Of a DNA stretch of 53,378 nucleotides, positions 29,299 through 32,897 are shown piece after piece. Under the pieces are notes generated by a model. That model did no database searches. It was not told the DNA's origin and saw only the letters and a list, made by a program, of their open reading frames with translations. Position 1 is the stretch's first letter. Each line of letters starts with the position of its first letter. The DNA lies in NCBI GenBank assembly GCA_018432765.1, contig JAHDSI010000031.1, positions 1 through 53,378 of the forward strand. The letters are read 5' to 3'. The position numbers and the translations under genes were made by a program. The stretch comes from Methanoregulaceae archaeon (lineage in GTDB: Archaea > Halobacteriota > Methanomicrobia > Methanomicrobiales > Methanospirillaceae).

Positions 29299-29345
29299 CA
29301 GTTGGTATATTCAGTTGGTAATGCAATTGATTTAATTTTCAATTG
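29299..29345. promoter_or_regulatory. tupA promoter with direct repeats and an inverted repeat
   Basis: Two elements precede the TupA gene. CAGTTGGTA occurs twice in the same direction (29299-29307 and 29312-29320, 13 bp apart). CAATTGA (29324-29330) and TCAATTG (29339-29345) form a perfect inverted repeat around TTTAATTT, which may itself be the TATA box. A repressor bound to the inverted repeat would block the promoter. The direct repeats resemble elements before the MoSto and TupB genes. Confidence 0.5.
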
Positions 29346-29399
29346 AAGATAAAAGGAAATTTTGATTACAGATGCCGTGAATGGGTATGTGTGGTACTG

Positions 29400-30374
29400 A
29401 TGAACAAAAATTCCCAGTCTATCCTTATTCTGGTCTTTGCTGCTATAATTGTAGGAGGAGTTCTCTTTGCAGGTTGTACAACGACACCTGAAACAGGCAC
29501 TCCGACAGCTCAGCCCACGACTTCGGTCGGTCCGAAAGAGAAGTTACTGCTTGCAACGACCACCAGCCTGTATGATACCGGGCTCCTGGATCACTTAAAG
29601 CCGATGTTTGAAGATAAATACAATGTTGAACTCCTGATCACCTCGCAGGGGACGGGAAAGGCGATAGAGATTGCCAGTCGCGGTGACGCCGACGTCCTGG
29701 CTGTCCATTCTCCAGCCCAGGAGCAGGTGTTCATGGACGCAGGGCATGGATTAAACAGACGATGTTTTGCCTATAATTATTTCATCATCGTCGGACCGGA
29801 TGATGACCCGGCAGGCATCAGGGGAATGGATCCGGAAGCTGCATTCCAGAAACTCTACGACATGGGCATGGCTGCGACTCCGGGCGTCCAGTTTGCATCC
29901 AGGGGTGACAATTCCGGAACACATTCCAAGGAGAAAGCCATCTGGGCAGCTGCCGGATACGATTATGCGACAGATATTCAGAAATCAGGCGACTGGTACA
30001 TCGAGGCAGGGAGGGGGATGGGCGAGACTCTGCAGCTCTCCAACGAGAAACAGGCATACACTCTCTCAGACGAAGGTACCTACCTGGCATACAAGGGCGA
30101 CCTCGACATTGTCCCCCTGATAGACCAGGGCGACATCCTGCTGAATGTGTACAGTGTGATAGCCGTGTATAACGAGGCATTCTCATCTGACGAGATCACC
30201 ATGGCGAACAACTTCGTCGACTTCCTCACCTCGCCGGAGATCCAGGACGAGATCGGGAGCTTCGGCGTAGATACGTACGGGAAGAACCTCTTCTCACCGA
30301 TGAGCGGTGATTGTGAGCAGTTCGACTGTGACTGCACGAGCCCGGCGACAGAGACCACTCCGGCGGTCGCCTGA
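29400..30374 (+). CDS. tupA: tungstate/molybdate ABC transporter substrate-binding lipoprotein (TupA type)
   Basis: Extracellular binding protein of the COG2998 TupA family that captures tungstate, with molybdate possible. From the ATG at 29400 it is 324 residues: a hydrophobic leader ending in the lipobox VLFAGC (C26), then a Thr/Pro-rich linker. The binding domain opens with LATTTSLYDTGLLDHLKPMFE, with TSQGTGKAIE and GDADVLAVHSPAQEQVFMD next, and SRGDNSGTHSKE later, the usual oxyanion-contacting segments. The C-terminal tail is Cys/Thr-rich. The matching permease and ATPase are 3.4 kb away (tupBC), separated by divergent genes. A T-rich run after the stop (about 30391-30402) probably terminates it. 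Confidence 0.9.
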   Translation: MNKNSQSILILVFAAIIVGGVLFAGCTTTPETGTPTAQPTTSVGPKEKLLLATTTSLYDTGLLDHLKPMFEDKYNVELLITSQGTGKAIEIASRGDADVLAVHSPAQEQVFMDAGHGLNRRCFAYNYFIIVGPDDDPAGIRGMDPEAAFQKLYDMGMAATPGVQFASRGDNSGTHSKEKAIWAAAGYDYATDIQKSGDWYIEAGRGMGETLQLSNEKQAYTLSDEGTYLAYKGDLDIVPLIDQGDILLNVYSVIAVYNEAFSSDEITMANNFVDFLTSPEIQDEIGSFGVDTYGKNLFSPMSGDCEQFDCDCTSPATETTPAVA

Positions 30375-30424: not shown

Positions 30425-30437
30425 TTTTATTTAATAT
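30425..30437 (+). promoter_or_regulatory. TATA box of small RNA candidate 1
   Basis: TTTTATTTAATAT begins 35 bp before the conserved ACATGG. The second copy has TTTTATTTACTAT at almost the same distance, so the promoter is duplicated with the RNA. Confidence 0.55.
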
Positions 30438-30454
30438 GTAAGTCAAGACTATCC

Positions 30455-30590
30455 TGGCTACATGGGTTCCTTGCCTGTGTGGCGATCATGTATCGAATTC
30501 CATGTCTGATACCTCTGAAATGCTATCACCAGCAACAGACATCAGGGGGTGAATGAAGGAGAATATCAGGATCTAATCCTTTCTCCTTTT
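30455..30590 (+). ncRNA. candidate structured small RNA, copy 1
   Basis: About 135 nt from the presumed start 25 bp after the TATA centre to the end of the terminator hairpin. The outer stem is ACATGG (30460-30465) with CCATGT (30500-30505). Inside are GCC-TGTGT-GGC and CGAT-CATGT-ATCG, two short hairpins. A further possible stem is CCTCTG with CAGGGG (one G-U). The core through about 30513 is closely repeated at 30750-30802. No conserved reading frame. No match to a riboswitch class that I know. Confidence 0.6.
30556..30588 (+). terminator. terminator-like hairpin of small RNA candidate 1
   Basis: AAGGAGAA (30556-30563) pairs perfectly with TTCTCCTT (30581-30588), with inner AGGAT/ATCCT pairing, followed by more T residues. 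It closes the 3' side of the first element. Confidence 0.6.
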
Positions 30591-30713
30591 CATTTCTGCC
30601 AGTATTTTCTTCTGTCCCTGTCCTTTGCATTGCCGCCCGTGTCCGGATCTACCATTCACCGGTTTGGAGAGAGATAAATTTTTTTTGTTTAATAATTGAC
30701 TATAATCAATAAG

Positions 30714-30726
30714 TTTTATTTACTAT
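30714..30726 (+). promoter_or_regulatory. TATA box of small RNA candidate 2
   Basis: TTTTATTTACTAT begins 36 bp before the conserved ACATGG of copy 2, matching copy 1 in sequence (12 of 13) and in spacing. Confidence 0.55.
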
Positions 30727-30744
30727 TGTTATCCATATTATCTT

Positions 30745-30897
30745 TGCCCACATGGGTTTGGGGCCTGTGTGGTGATGCGTACTCGATTCCATGTCTGAAC
30801 CTCGGACCCCCCCGTGTACCGCATCAGATTCAGTGCTACCGGATATGGACAAAAGGAAGAGTGATCTGTGGGGAATGAGATTCACCTTTCCTTTTGT
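30745..30897 (+). ncRNA. candidate structured small RNA, copy 2
   Basis: About 150 nt. The core keeps the outer stem ACATGG (30750-30755) with CCATGT (30789-30794) and an almost equal enclosed length (33 against 34 nt). The inner hairpin becomes GCC-TGTGT-GGT, a G-U change that still pairs. The shared CATGGG, GCCTGTGTGG, TTCCATGTCTGA and ACCTC blocks are clear, while the 3' half diverges. It ends in its own long hairpin just against the permease stop codon. Confidence 0.6.
30849..30897. terminator. 10-bp hairpin between small RNA candidate 2 and the permease
   Basis: ACAAAAGGAA (30849-30858) and TTCCTTTTGT (30888-30897) are perfect complements and end directly at the permease stop codon on the other strand. 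With T-runs on both strands it could end transcripts from both directions. Confidence 0.6.
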
Positions 30898-32043
30898 TCA
30901 ATCCGGGTGGAAGGCCGATTGCTTTTTTTCGATATACAAAAGGAGATAGGCGAGTGCCATACCAATAAAAAATGCTACCGTCATCGAGAATACGAGCGAG
31001 AGTATTCCGATGGTGATGGTCACCGCGATTGATTCTGTTTTCCAGGCATGCTTCGCAAGCTCGAGCGCAACAAAGACAAGCAGGGCTCCATACACCCCGA
31101 CTGATATCAGGCTGACCATAGACGGTCCCGCAAAGAAAAGAGCCAGGATCACAAATATTCCCCCGGCGATGATATTCGCACCTCCTGTCCGTGCCCCGAA
31201 CCGGTACATCCCTGCCATTCCACCTGCACCGTGACACATTGGCATCCCCCCGAAAGGCACCGATACCAGGTTCATCAGGCCGATTGTGCGTGACAGGCGG
31301 GCAGGCATGAGCTTCACTGACATGAGATCGCGGGACAGGAGCGAGGTTGCCAGGATGGCGTTGGTCAGGGTGAGAAGGGCCTGCGGGATGACGAGCACTG
31401 AAAGAGCCGGGATAAAATCATCGGTTTTTGGGAGAACCAGCGCTGGAGGTGACAGAAAGACGAGCTGGGGCACCCCGTGAACGAGGATTCCCGCTCCCAG
31501 GGCAAGGAAAATCAGCACCAGGGAGGAAAGGTCAGGGATTTTTCGCCAGCGGGAAAAGAGGAAGATCCCGACGATTATCGCAACACCGAATACAAAATAG
31601 ATCGGATCCTCGAGCATGAAGCCTCCCGAGGTTTTGAGGAGAAGGAGGGCAAGCCCAAGCTGGATTCCCCGTATCACACTGTCCGGGATCCACTTCTCGA
31701 GCAGGTTCATCCAGTTGCCCGTTCCAAGCACCAGAAAGATCACGCCGAGCAGGATCCCCGCCGCCGCAATCTCGCCCGGTCCGATCGCTTCGGCGATTGC
31801 GATCACCGCGATCACCTTCATGGGTTCTACTGGAACCGGAACGCGATAGAGAAGACCGCTGATGACAAACCAGATGCCGAAAAATAAGAAGATATATCCG
31901 ATATCCAGCCCGGCTACCAGGGCGACTGCCAGAACCAGCGGGAGGATGGTTCCAAAATCCCCCATGCTGCCGGCCAGCTCGGAGAGATCGAACCGGATTT
32001 TTGGAATATTCTCATCCTCTGAACCGTTCACGATCTGATTCAA
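30898..32043 (-). CDS. MOT1-type molybdate transporter
   Basis: A 381-residue membrane protein with about eleven hydrophobic segments. Signature regions are ELAGSMGDFGTILPLVLA near 21-38, the VPVPVEPMKVIAVIAIAEA loop, and PMCHGAGGMAGMYRFGARTGG near 270-290. The last is the hallmark that separates MOT1 molybdate permeases (putative sulfate/molybdate family) from SulP proteins. MOT1 proteins take up molybdate with high affinity in algae and plants; prokaryotic members are mostly annotated as putative sulfate/molybdate transporters. An AAGGATTG site precedes the ATG. The gene lies 25 bp downstream of the MoSto-like gene, forming a storage-uptake operon. Confidence 0.88.
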   Translation of the reverse strand: MNQIVNGSEDENIPKIRFDLSELAGSMGDFGTILPLVLAVALVAGLDIGYIFLFFGIWFVISGLLYRVPVPVEPMKVIAVIAIAEAIGPGEIAAAGILLGVIFLVLGTGNWMNLLEKWIPDSVIRGIQLGLALLLLKTSGGFMLEDPIYFVFGVAIIVGIFLFSRWRKIPDLSSLVLIFLALGAGILVHGVPQLVFLSPPALVLPKTDDFIPALSVLVIPQALLTLTNAILATSLLSRDLMSVKLMPARLSRTIGLMNLVSVPFGGMPMCHGAGGMAGMYRFGARTGGANIIAGGIFVILALFFAGPSMVSLISVGVYGALLVFVALELAKHAWKTESIAVTITIGILSLVFSMTVAFFIGMALAYLLLYIEKKQSAFHPD

Positions 32044-32068: not shown

Positions 32069-32881
32069 TCAGTGTGCATGAATGGTGGTCCCGATATCCT
32101 CCCCTTCGAGGACCCGCCGGATATTCCCCGGTTTATGGCCATTTACTATCCTGACCGATTTGAGGTTCTTTGCATAACGGAGTAATTCCACGACTTTCGG
32201 CTCGAGGACCATGTCATGCATCTCCATATCGAGAAGCTCGGATGCGGTGATATCGGGGATCAGCTCTGCTTCAGGATGCCTGAACGGATTTTTCGTGAAG
32301 AGGCCATCCACGTTCTTTACCAGCACGAGATTCCTGGCCCCAAGAACCTCTGCGGCAAGGAATGCTCCGGTATCAGTCCTGTTGGGGGGTATCGAGCCGA
32401 CTTCAGCCGGTTGTTCATACAGGCCGTATGGAGGGGTTCCATGGGTGACAGGGAGGACTCCAAGTCTCAAAAGCATGGGAAGCTCCAGCAGATCGGCAGT
32501 ATGTATCCTCATTCCACCATATGGAGAGAGGAGGATGGACATCATGATGGCGTTCTGTTCGCTGATCTTACCCGCCAGTTCGGCAAGCACACCGGTGGGC
32601 ATCCCAAGGTTCAACCCTATATCAAGGATGTGTCTCACCCTCACACCCCCTCCGGTCACCACGAGGATCTTGTATTCCTTTGAGAGCTCTCCGATCTCCT
32701 GCACCAATGGCAGGACCACATCCTTTCCGTAATCGATGATGCCGTGACCTCCGAGCTTCACCACGTTCAGATCAGGCATGAGCTTCAGCTGGGGGACATG
32801 TTCATATGCACGAAGAAGCCCGATTCTTGCCAGTGACTCTCCTTTCAGCTCACTTTCCATCTCAAACCGGTTCCGTTTCAT
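32069..32881 (-). CDS. molybdenum storage protein (MoSto) homologue
   Basis: An amino-acid-kinase-fold protein that aligns throughout with the MoSto subunits of Azotobacter, closest in feel to MosB. MoSto uses ATP to build and hold polyoxomolybdate or tungstate clusters in a hexameric cage. Landmarks are VVKLGG, LVVTGGGVRVRHILDIGLNLGMPTG, SEQNAIMM, the TPPYGLYEQPAEVGSIPPNRTDTGAFLAAE region matching the cluster- and nucleotide-contacting part, VLVKNVDGLFTKNP, and a final IVNGHKPGNIRRVLEGEDIGT. Residues 1-30 are less conserved. The ATG at 32881 is 17-31 bp after a TATA-like box; an ATG at 32893 is also possible. Only one subunit type is encoded here. Confidence 0.85.
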   Translation of the reverse strand: MKRNRFEMESELKGESLARIGLLRAYEHVPQLKLMPDLNVVKLGGHGIIDYGKDVVLPLVQEIGELSKEYKILVVTGGGVRVRHILDIGLNLGMPTGVLAELAGKISEQNAIMMSILLSPYGGMRIHTADLLELPMLLRLGVLPVTHGTPPYGLYEQPAEVGSIPPNRTDTGAFLAAEVLGARNLVLVKNVDGLFTKNPFRHPEAELIPDITASELLDMEMHDMVLEPKVVELLRYAKNLKSVRIVNGHKPGNIRRVLEGEDIGTTIHAH

Positions 32882-32897
32882 CTGCGTATACATAGAT

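Follow-up and report, generated by a model that had tools for sequence, protein, structure and literature searches.

Few archaeal sRNAs have known targets. Masking of a ribosome-binding site is documented for sRNA162 of the methanogen Methanosarcina mazei (PMC3510493), which is encoded intergenically and acts in trans through a single-stranded segment, and covering of ribosome-binding sites in metabolic mRNAs was proposed for the archaeal sRNA154 and sRNA41 of the same organism (reviewed in PMC5867862). The elements described here are likened to these RNAs by mechanism, not by sequence or homology: the target of sRNA162 was found by experiment whereas the present case concerns two tandem paralogs with a putative target, and sRNA154 and sRNA41 are nitrogen-regulated RNAs of Methanosarcina. 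The Moco/Tuco RNA motif (RF01055), described in bacteria upstream of the genes that it controls (PMC2408646), is a structured RNA found, like ours, near Mo/W transport genes, but the RNAs presented below precede no gene in the sense direction. No described sRNA was found for Methanoregulaceae in the literature searched, and the pair is classed as a new sRNA family of an already known kind.

A repeat search of the window (the whole stretch of 53,378 nucleotides analysed) identified two paralogous elements on the forward strand, at about 30455–30600 (sRNA1) and 30745–30900 (sRNA2), 290 bp apart as stated in the initial annotation of this DNA. They sit between the ends of two convergent genes, which code for a TupA-like tungstate-binding protein (29343–30374, forward strand; Pfam PF12849; a match to NCBIfam TupA at E=5.8e-53 stays under that family's cut-off) and for a MOT1-family molybdate transporter (30898–32043, reverse strand; PF16983, E=3.2e-50). 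The boundaries are approximate, sRNA1 being taken to start ~25 nt past the TATA box and to end with its 3′ hairpin. The two copies share a common plan: a TATA-like box is followed by a 5′ hairpin, then by the invariant block ATTCCATGTCTGA, and last by a 3′ hairpin of some length. Copy 1 used as BLAST query against its own 1.86-Mb assembly matched copy 2 (E=1.9e-6, 76% over 94 nt) and yielded no further credible copy. The copies are homologous only over the 5′ ~94 nt, a span that takes in the promoter plus some 65 nt of RNA. Their 3′ halves gave no BLAST alignment to each other, though a strong hairpin closes each of them.

The TATA-type element reported to precede each copy was found to be the same 9-mer, TTTTATTTA, at positions 30425–30433 for sRNA1 and 30714–30722 for sRNA2 (forward strand), followed by an AT-rich stretch in both cases. 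Within the 53-kb window it is present only in these two promoters, and it occurs three times in another 547 kb (both strands). By computation, each RNA is thus preceded at ~25–30 nt by a TATA-like motif that all three genomes retain and that is seldom met outside these promoters. The RNAs would end in the hairpins found at 30546–30598 (sRNA1; nearly invariant across the three genomes) and 30846–30900 (sRNA2). The arms of the latter (30846–30864 and 30882–30900) are 84% complementary and its end abuts the MOT1 stop codon (30898–30900), an arrangement in which the hairpin may act as terminator for both strands. The terminator-like hairpins of the initial annotation are real, but no T-run follows them: a terminator consensus scan found no combination of hairpin and T-run, so the term “terminator” is applied to them only putatively. 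No reading frame is shared between the copies, indels separate the paralogs as well as the species, and the antisense micro-ORFs (5, 28 or 2 codons) differ or are truncated among species. Both elements are non-coding by these observations.

The same ordered pair was found by blastn and alignment in both other genomes of the genus (G086 and G087), which a collection scan matched to Methanolinea sp. SDB (LKUF01000159.1) and UBA477 (DAWO01000103.1). Together with the genome under study (G000) they provide six sequences for comparison, two per genome. Identity to the sister genomes is 94–100% for the promoters (94–100% for the segment 30424–30454 of sRNA1 and 97% for the promoter of sRNA2) and 90–97% for the sRNAs (95–97% for sRNA1; 90% and 97% for sRNA2), versus 76% and 86%, with gaps, for the spacer between the two genes (30605–30713). 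The stretch from tupA to the first promoter is 66% and 98% identical in the two sister genomes, and the third codon positions of MOT1 are 84% and 94% identical. All six sequences carry the 13-mer ATTCCATGTCTGA and the segment CCTGTGTGG unchanged. Since promoters and RNAs are conserved while the spacer has diverged, conservation tracks two promoter-to-hairpin units and not a reading frame. This agrees with the earlier view that coding is unlikely and that the locus carries structured paralogous RNAs with the appearance of independent transcription. The position of the elements downstream of tupA and on the same strand, combined with the fact that sRNA transcription is a prediction, would also suit structured elements of the tupA 3′ UTR, or a decayed mobile element, devoid of an sRNA function of their own. 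This reading is rather improbable in view of the rare TATA-like motif owned by each copy, the T-rich stretch that follows the tupA stop codon, the promoter-to-hairpin conservation in three genomes amid diverged spacers, and the lack of other copies in the genome. The best reading of these data is that of two predicted sRNAs, independently transcribed, non-coding and restricted to one genus.

In the best or near-best fold of each RNA, ACATGGG pairs with CCTGTGT at the extreme 5′ end, forming a hairpin at 30457–30483 in sRNA1 (GCTACATGGG with CCTGTGTGGC; lowest-energy fold) and at 30748–30772 in sRNA2 (CCACATGGG with CCTGTGTGG; fold predictions and pair conservation). This competing hairpin (CACATGGG/CCTGTGTGG) folds better than the ACATGG/CCATGT outer stem proposed initially, which can form in all copies but at 1.3–8.7 kcal/mol above the best fold. 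Under each of the two models 93–97% of the pair cells are kept across the six sequences (93% for the sRNA1 hairpin) and neither displays a two-sided (compensatory) change, so these sequences do not decide between the two 5′ folds. The inner GGC to GGT replacement, described as leaving the pairing with GCC intact, alters one side only and creates a wobble; copy 1 of G087 reads TCC, which breaks the inner pair. The absence of covarying pairs, named in the initial annotation as an outcome that would refute it, is nearly reached: two-sided changes amount to none in the 5′ stem and to a single pair of the sRNA2 3′ hairpin that is changed on both sides yet kept. sRNA1 is more stable than its shuffles (z=-2.9; z=-3.2 for its 5′ part). 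sRNA2 as a whole is no better than shuffles (z=-0.5), a result that counts against the explanation preferred below.

The segment ACATGGGTT is common to both alternative helices, which makes a two-state RNA possible according to the fold models. Its ability to pair with either CCTGTGT or ATTCCATGT, these three segments being the most conserved parts of the elements, the modest energy gap between the two stems, and the flanking TupA-like, MOT1 and Mo-storage genes could all be accounted for if the conserved 5′ head were a ligand- or protein-binding switch (responding e.g. to molybdate, tungstate or a cofactor) with no mRNA target in trans. We consider such a switch unlikely. The head has no compensatory changes, and a classical riboswitch is excluded because no gene lies downstream in the sense direction; the elements are placed between convergent gene ends, whereas a Moco riboswitch would be located within a Mo/W gene's 5′ leader. 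In other genera the convergent Mo/W genes persist although the RNA is missing. Moreover, the covariance model of the Moco riboswitch RF01055 gave no match, either with the gathering threshold or with the limit relaxed to E<=10. More generally, Rfam 15 has no family at or above gathering for either element (the sole match in the window is a tRNA) and nothing meaningful for them at E<=10, in line with the earlier remark that no published RNA class was recognised.

The invariant block extends with TACCTC to positions 30497–30515 in sRNA1 and with ACCTC to 30786–30803 in sRNA2, its 13 nt being identical in the six sequences as found by repeat search and alignment. Its reverse complement, GAGGTATCAGACATGGAAT in copy 1 and GAGGTTCAGACATGGAAT in copy 2 (GAGGTA-TCAGAC-ATGGAAT and GAGGT-TCAGAC-ATGGAAT), has the layout of a translation initiation region: a Shine-Dalgarno (SD) sequence, 6–7 nt and ATG. 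The arrangement GAGGT-6/7 nt-ATGGAA suggests masking of ribosome-binding sites, a resemblance that was noticed post hoc and that partly reflects likeness to an anti-SD sequence. The two tandem intergenic genes would be transcribed from their own TATA promoters into non-coding RNAs of ~145–155 nt, each carrying a middle segment, AUUCCAUGUCUGA(UA)CCUC, set between a strong 5′ hairpin and a stable 3′ hairpin. The middle segment, of which 13 nt are invariant between paralogs and species, would pair in trans with mRNA start regions and cover the SD sequence and the AUG, repressing translation. Alternative pairing of ACAUGGGUU with CCUGUGU of the 5′ hairpin or with AUUCCAUGU might expose or hide it. 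We put the probability that the tandem pair masks mRNA start regions by trans pairing at about 45%. The RNAs are probably antisense regulators, and among the classes of mechanism start-site masking appears the likeliest. Between the two mechanisms put forward in the initial annotation, regulation by base pairing is the better one while metal sensing finds no direct evidence. The predicted internal pairing of CUGAU within the invariant block argues against masking.

The invariant 9 nt that precede CUGA could alternatively belong to C/D box guide RNAs, in which AUUCCAUGU-CUGA would represent a guide followed by box D and GUGAUG(A) of copy 2 a box C; copy 2 also has a weak SNORD98-like match (17.8 bits, E=1.2). 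Copy 1, however, reads GGCGAU(C/U) and lacks a box C (RUGAUGA), and a second box pair (C′/D′) is missing from both copies. ACATGGAAT is absent from the 16S and 23S rRNAs of three family members, the best candidate being one site with one mismatch in one genome; the organism's own 23S was not found in the assembly. Without box C in copy 1 and without rRNA complementarity, the guide RNA reading is largely refuted and has a very low probability.

Putative targets for start-site masking were searched in the start regions of 545 genes contained in ~600 kb, about a third of the genome. Mo/W-enzyme genes are possible targets, pointed to by the Mo/W neighbourhood and by the complementarity of fdhA (formate dehydrogenase alpha; TIGR01591, 878 bits), whose start region ranks second among the 545 for sRNA1 in G000. 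Shuffles retaining CCAT and ACCTC (anti-AUG and anti-SD) reach the fdhA score in 18 of 2000 cases in G000 and in 132 of 2000 in G086. The leader has diverged in G086 and G087, yet the pairing score is 33 in both. When intramolecular folding is counted, fdhA holds only rank 11 in G000, and its ddG values in the sister genomes are weak (-6.6 kcal/mol in G086 and -5.1 in G087, versus a best-of-starts gene mean of -9.9). Of the three FdhA genes of G000, the other two have no complementarity. We thus retain fdhA as a lead only, with the odds well against its being a true target. As a separate observation, the fdhA leader of G000 (L218, C38) is strongly diverged from those of the sister genomes (L215, L217), while SD sequence, spacer and start remain largely complementary to sRNA1. 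An extended version of the masking reading, in which a metal-responsive sRNA pair with a two-helix head hides or exposes the anti-initiation segment and co-regulates Mo/W enzymes such as formate dehydrogenase with the adjacent uptake and storage genes, appears a long shot.

Antisense sites for the 19 nt with up to three mismatches were found in the three genomes only in the RNA itself, and exact or near-exact sites for 13–19 nt gave nothing convincing. The candidate birA was attractive in G087 only and was rejected, as were the local genes, since nothing notable in complementarity was seen at their starts. An uncharacterised gene of 136 aa (L222, 1385–1792; contig C139 of G000) pairs with both copies over ~15 nt in G000; its start CAGACATGGGATCGA is complementary to sRNA2 over 15 nt with one G-U. 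This gene is kept only as a lead because its start is also conserved as coding sequence and no Pfam or NCBIfam match was found for it.

A homologue of the molybdenum storage protein, absent from the initial annotation of these RNAs, is encoded just upstream of MOT1 and in the same orientation (32069–32893, reverse strand; subunit beta of molybdenum storage protein is the best match in the PDB, E=4.2e-59), and probably forms with it a Mo storage and uptake operon. With the TupA-like protein and MOT1, it defines the locus as a Mo/W uptake and storage neighbourhood and strengthens the metal setting. Lying inside such a locus, the sRNA pair is a concrete candidate through which methanogens might control their Mo/W enzymes after transcription. 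The metal link suggested initially has this real neighbourhood in its favour, but complementarity to the neighbours' start regions is lacking and relatives keep tupA and MOT1 without the RNA. Read-through of the MOT1/Mo-storage mRNA would yield a transcript antisense to sRNA2 and sRNA1, and the sRNAs might then tune its 3′ end in cis, a proposal that is favoured by the MOT1 stop codon falling where the 3′ hairpin of sRNA2 ends. Its probability is nevertheless low: the best-conserved part is common to the paralogs instead of being tied to MOT1, and relatives retain the gene convergence without the RNA.

Full elements were found in the three genomes of the genus and nowhere else among 108 family genomes searched by blastn and 232 Methanomicrobiales genomes searched with a covariance model, the latter being the search recommended in the initial annotation; no other credible copy was identified among these 232 genomes. 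Weak covariance-model matches (best E=3.7e-4) were rejected as distant homologs: nearly all those inspected overlap long reading frames, none is a whole element, and the top one lies inside a long gene resembling a cation-transporting ATPase. Viral contigs gave two pattern matches and no full element, while a Leucobacter match in the collection scan looks like chance. The elements look real and new, with three genomes as their only known carriers. The RNAs thus appear to have been gained in, or retained only by, one genus; this restriction would make the pair an instance of an archaeal sRNA family that arose recently.

The convergence of a tupA-like gene with MOT1 recurs elsewhere in the family, in at least eight genomes from other genera (L106, L108, L109, L113, L115, L116, L117, L120), which indicates that the gene pairing is older than the RNAs. 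No RNA was found in the tupA/MOT1 intergenic regions of these other genera, nor any copy of it downstream of their MOT1 genes, so that location beside Mo/W genes alone is no proof of a Mo/W function. The corresponding intergenic place is occupied in other genera by G+C-rich hairpins built around AGCCCCG, close to which stand words resembling GCGTCA (L106, 880–1560; L120, 2540–3120; L108, 330–1560); these regions are mutually alike and possibly hold a repeated element.
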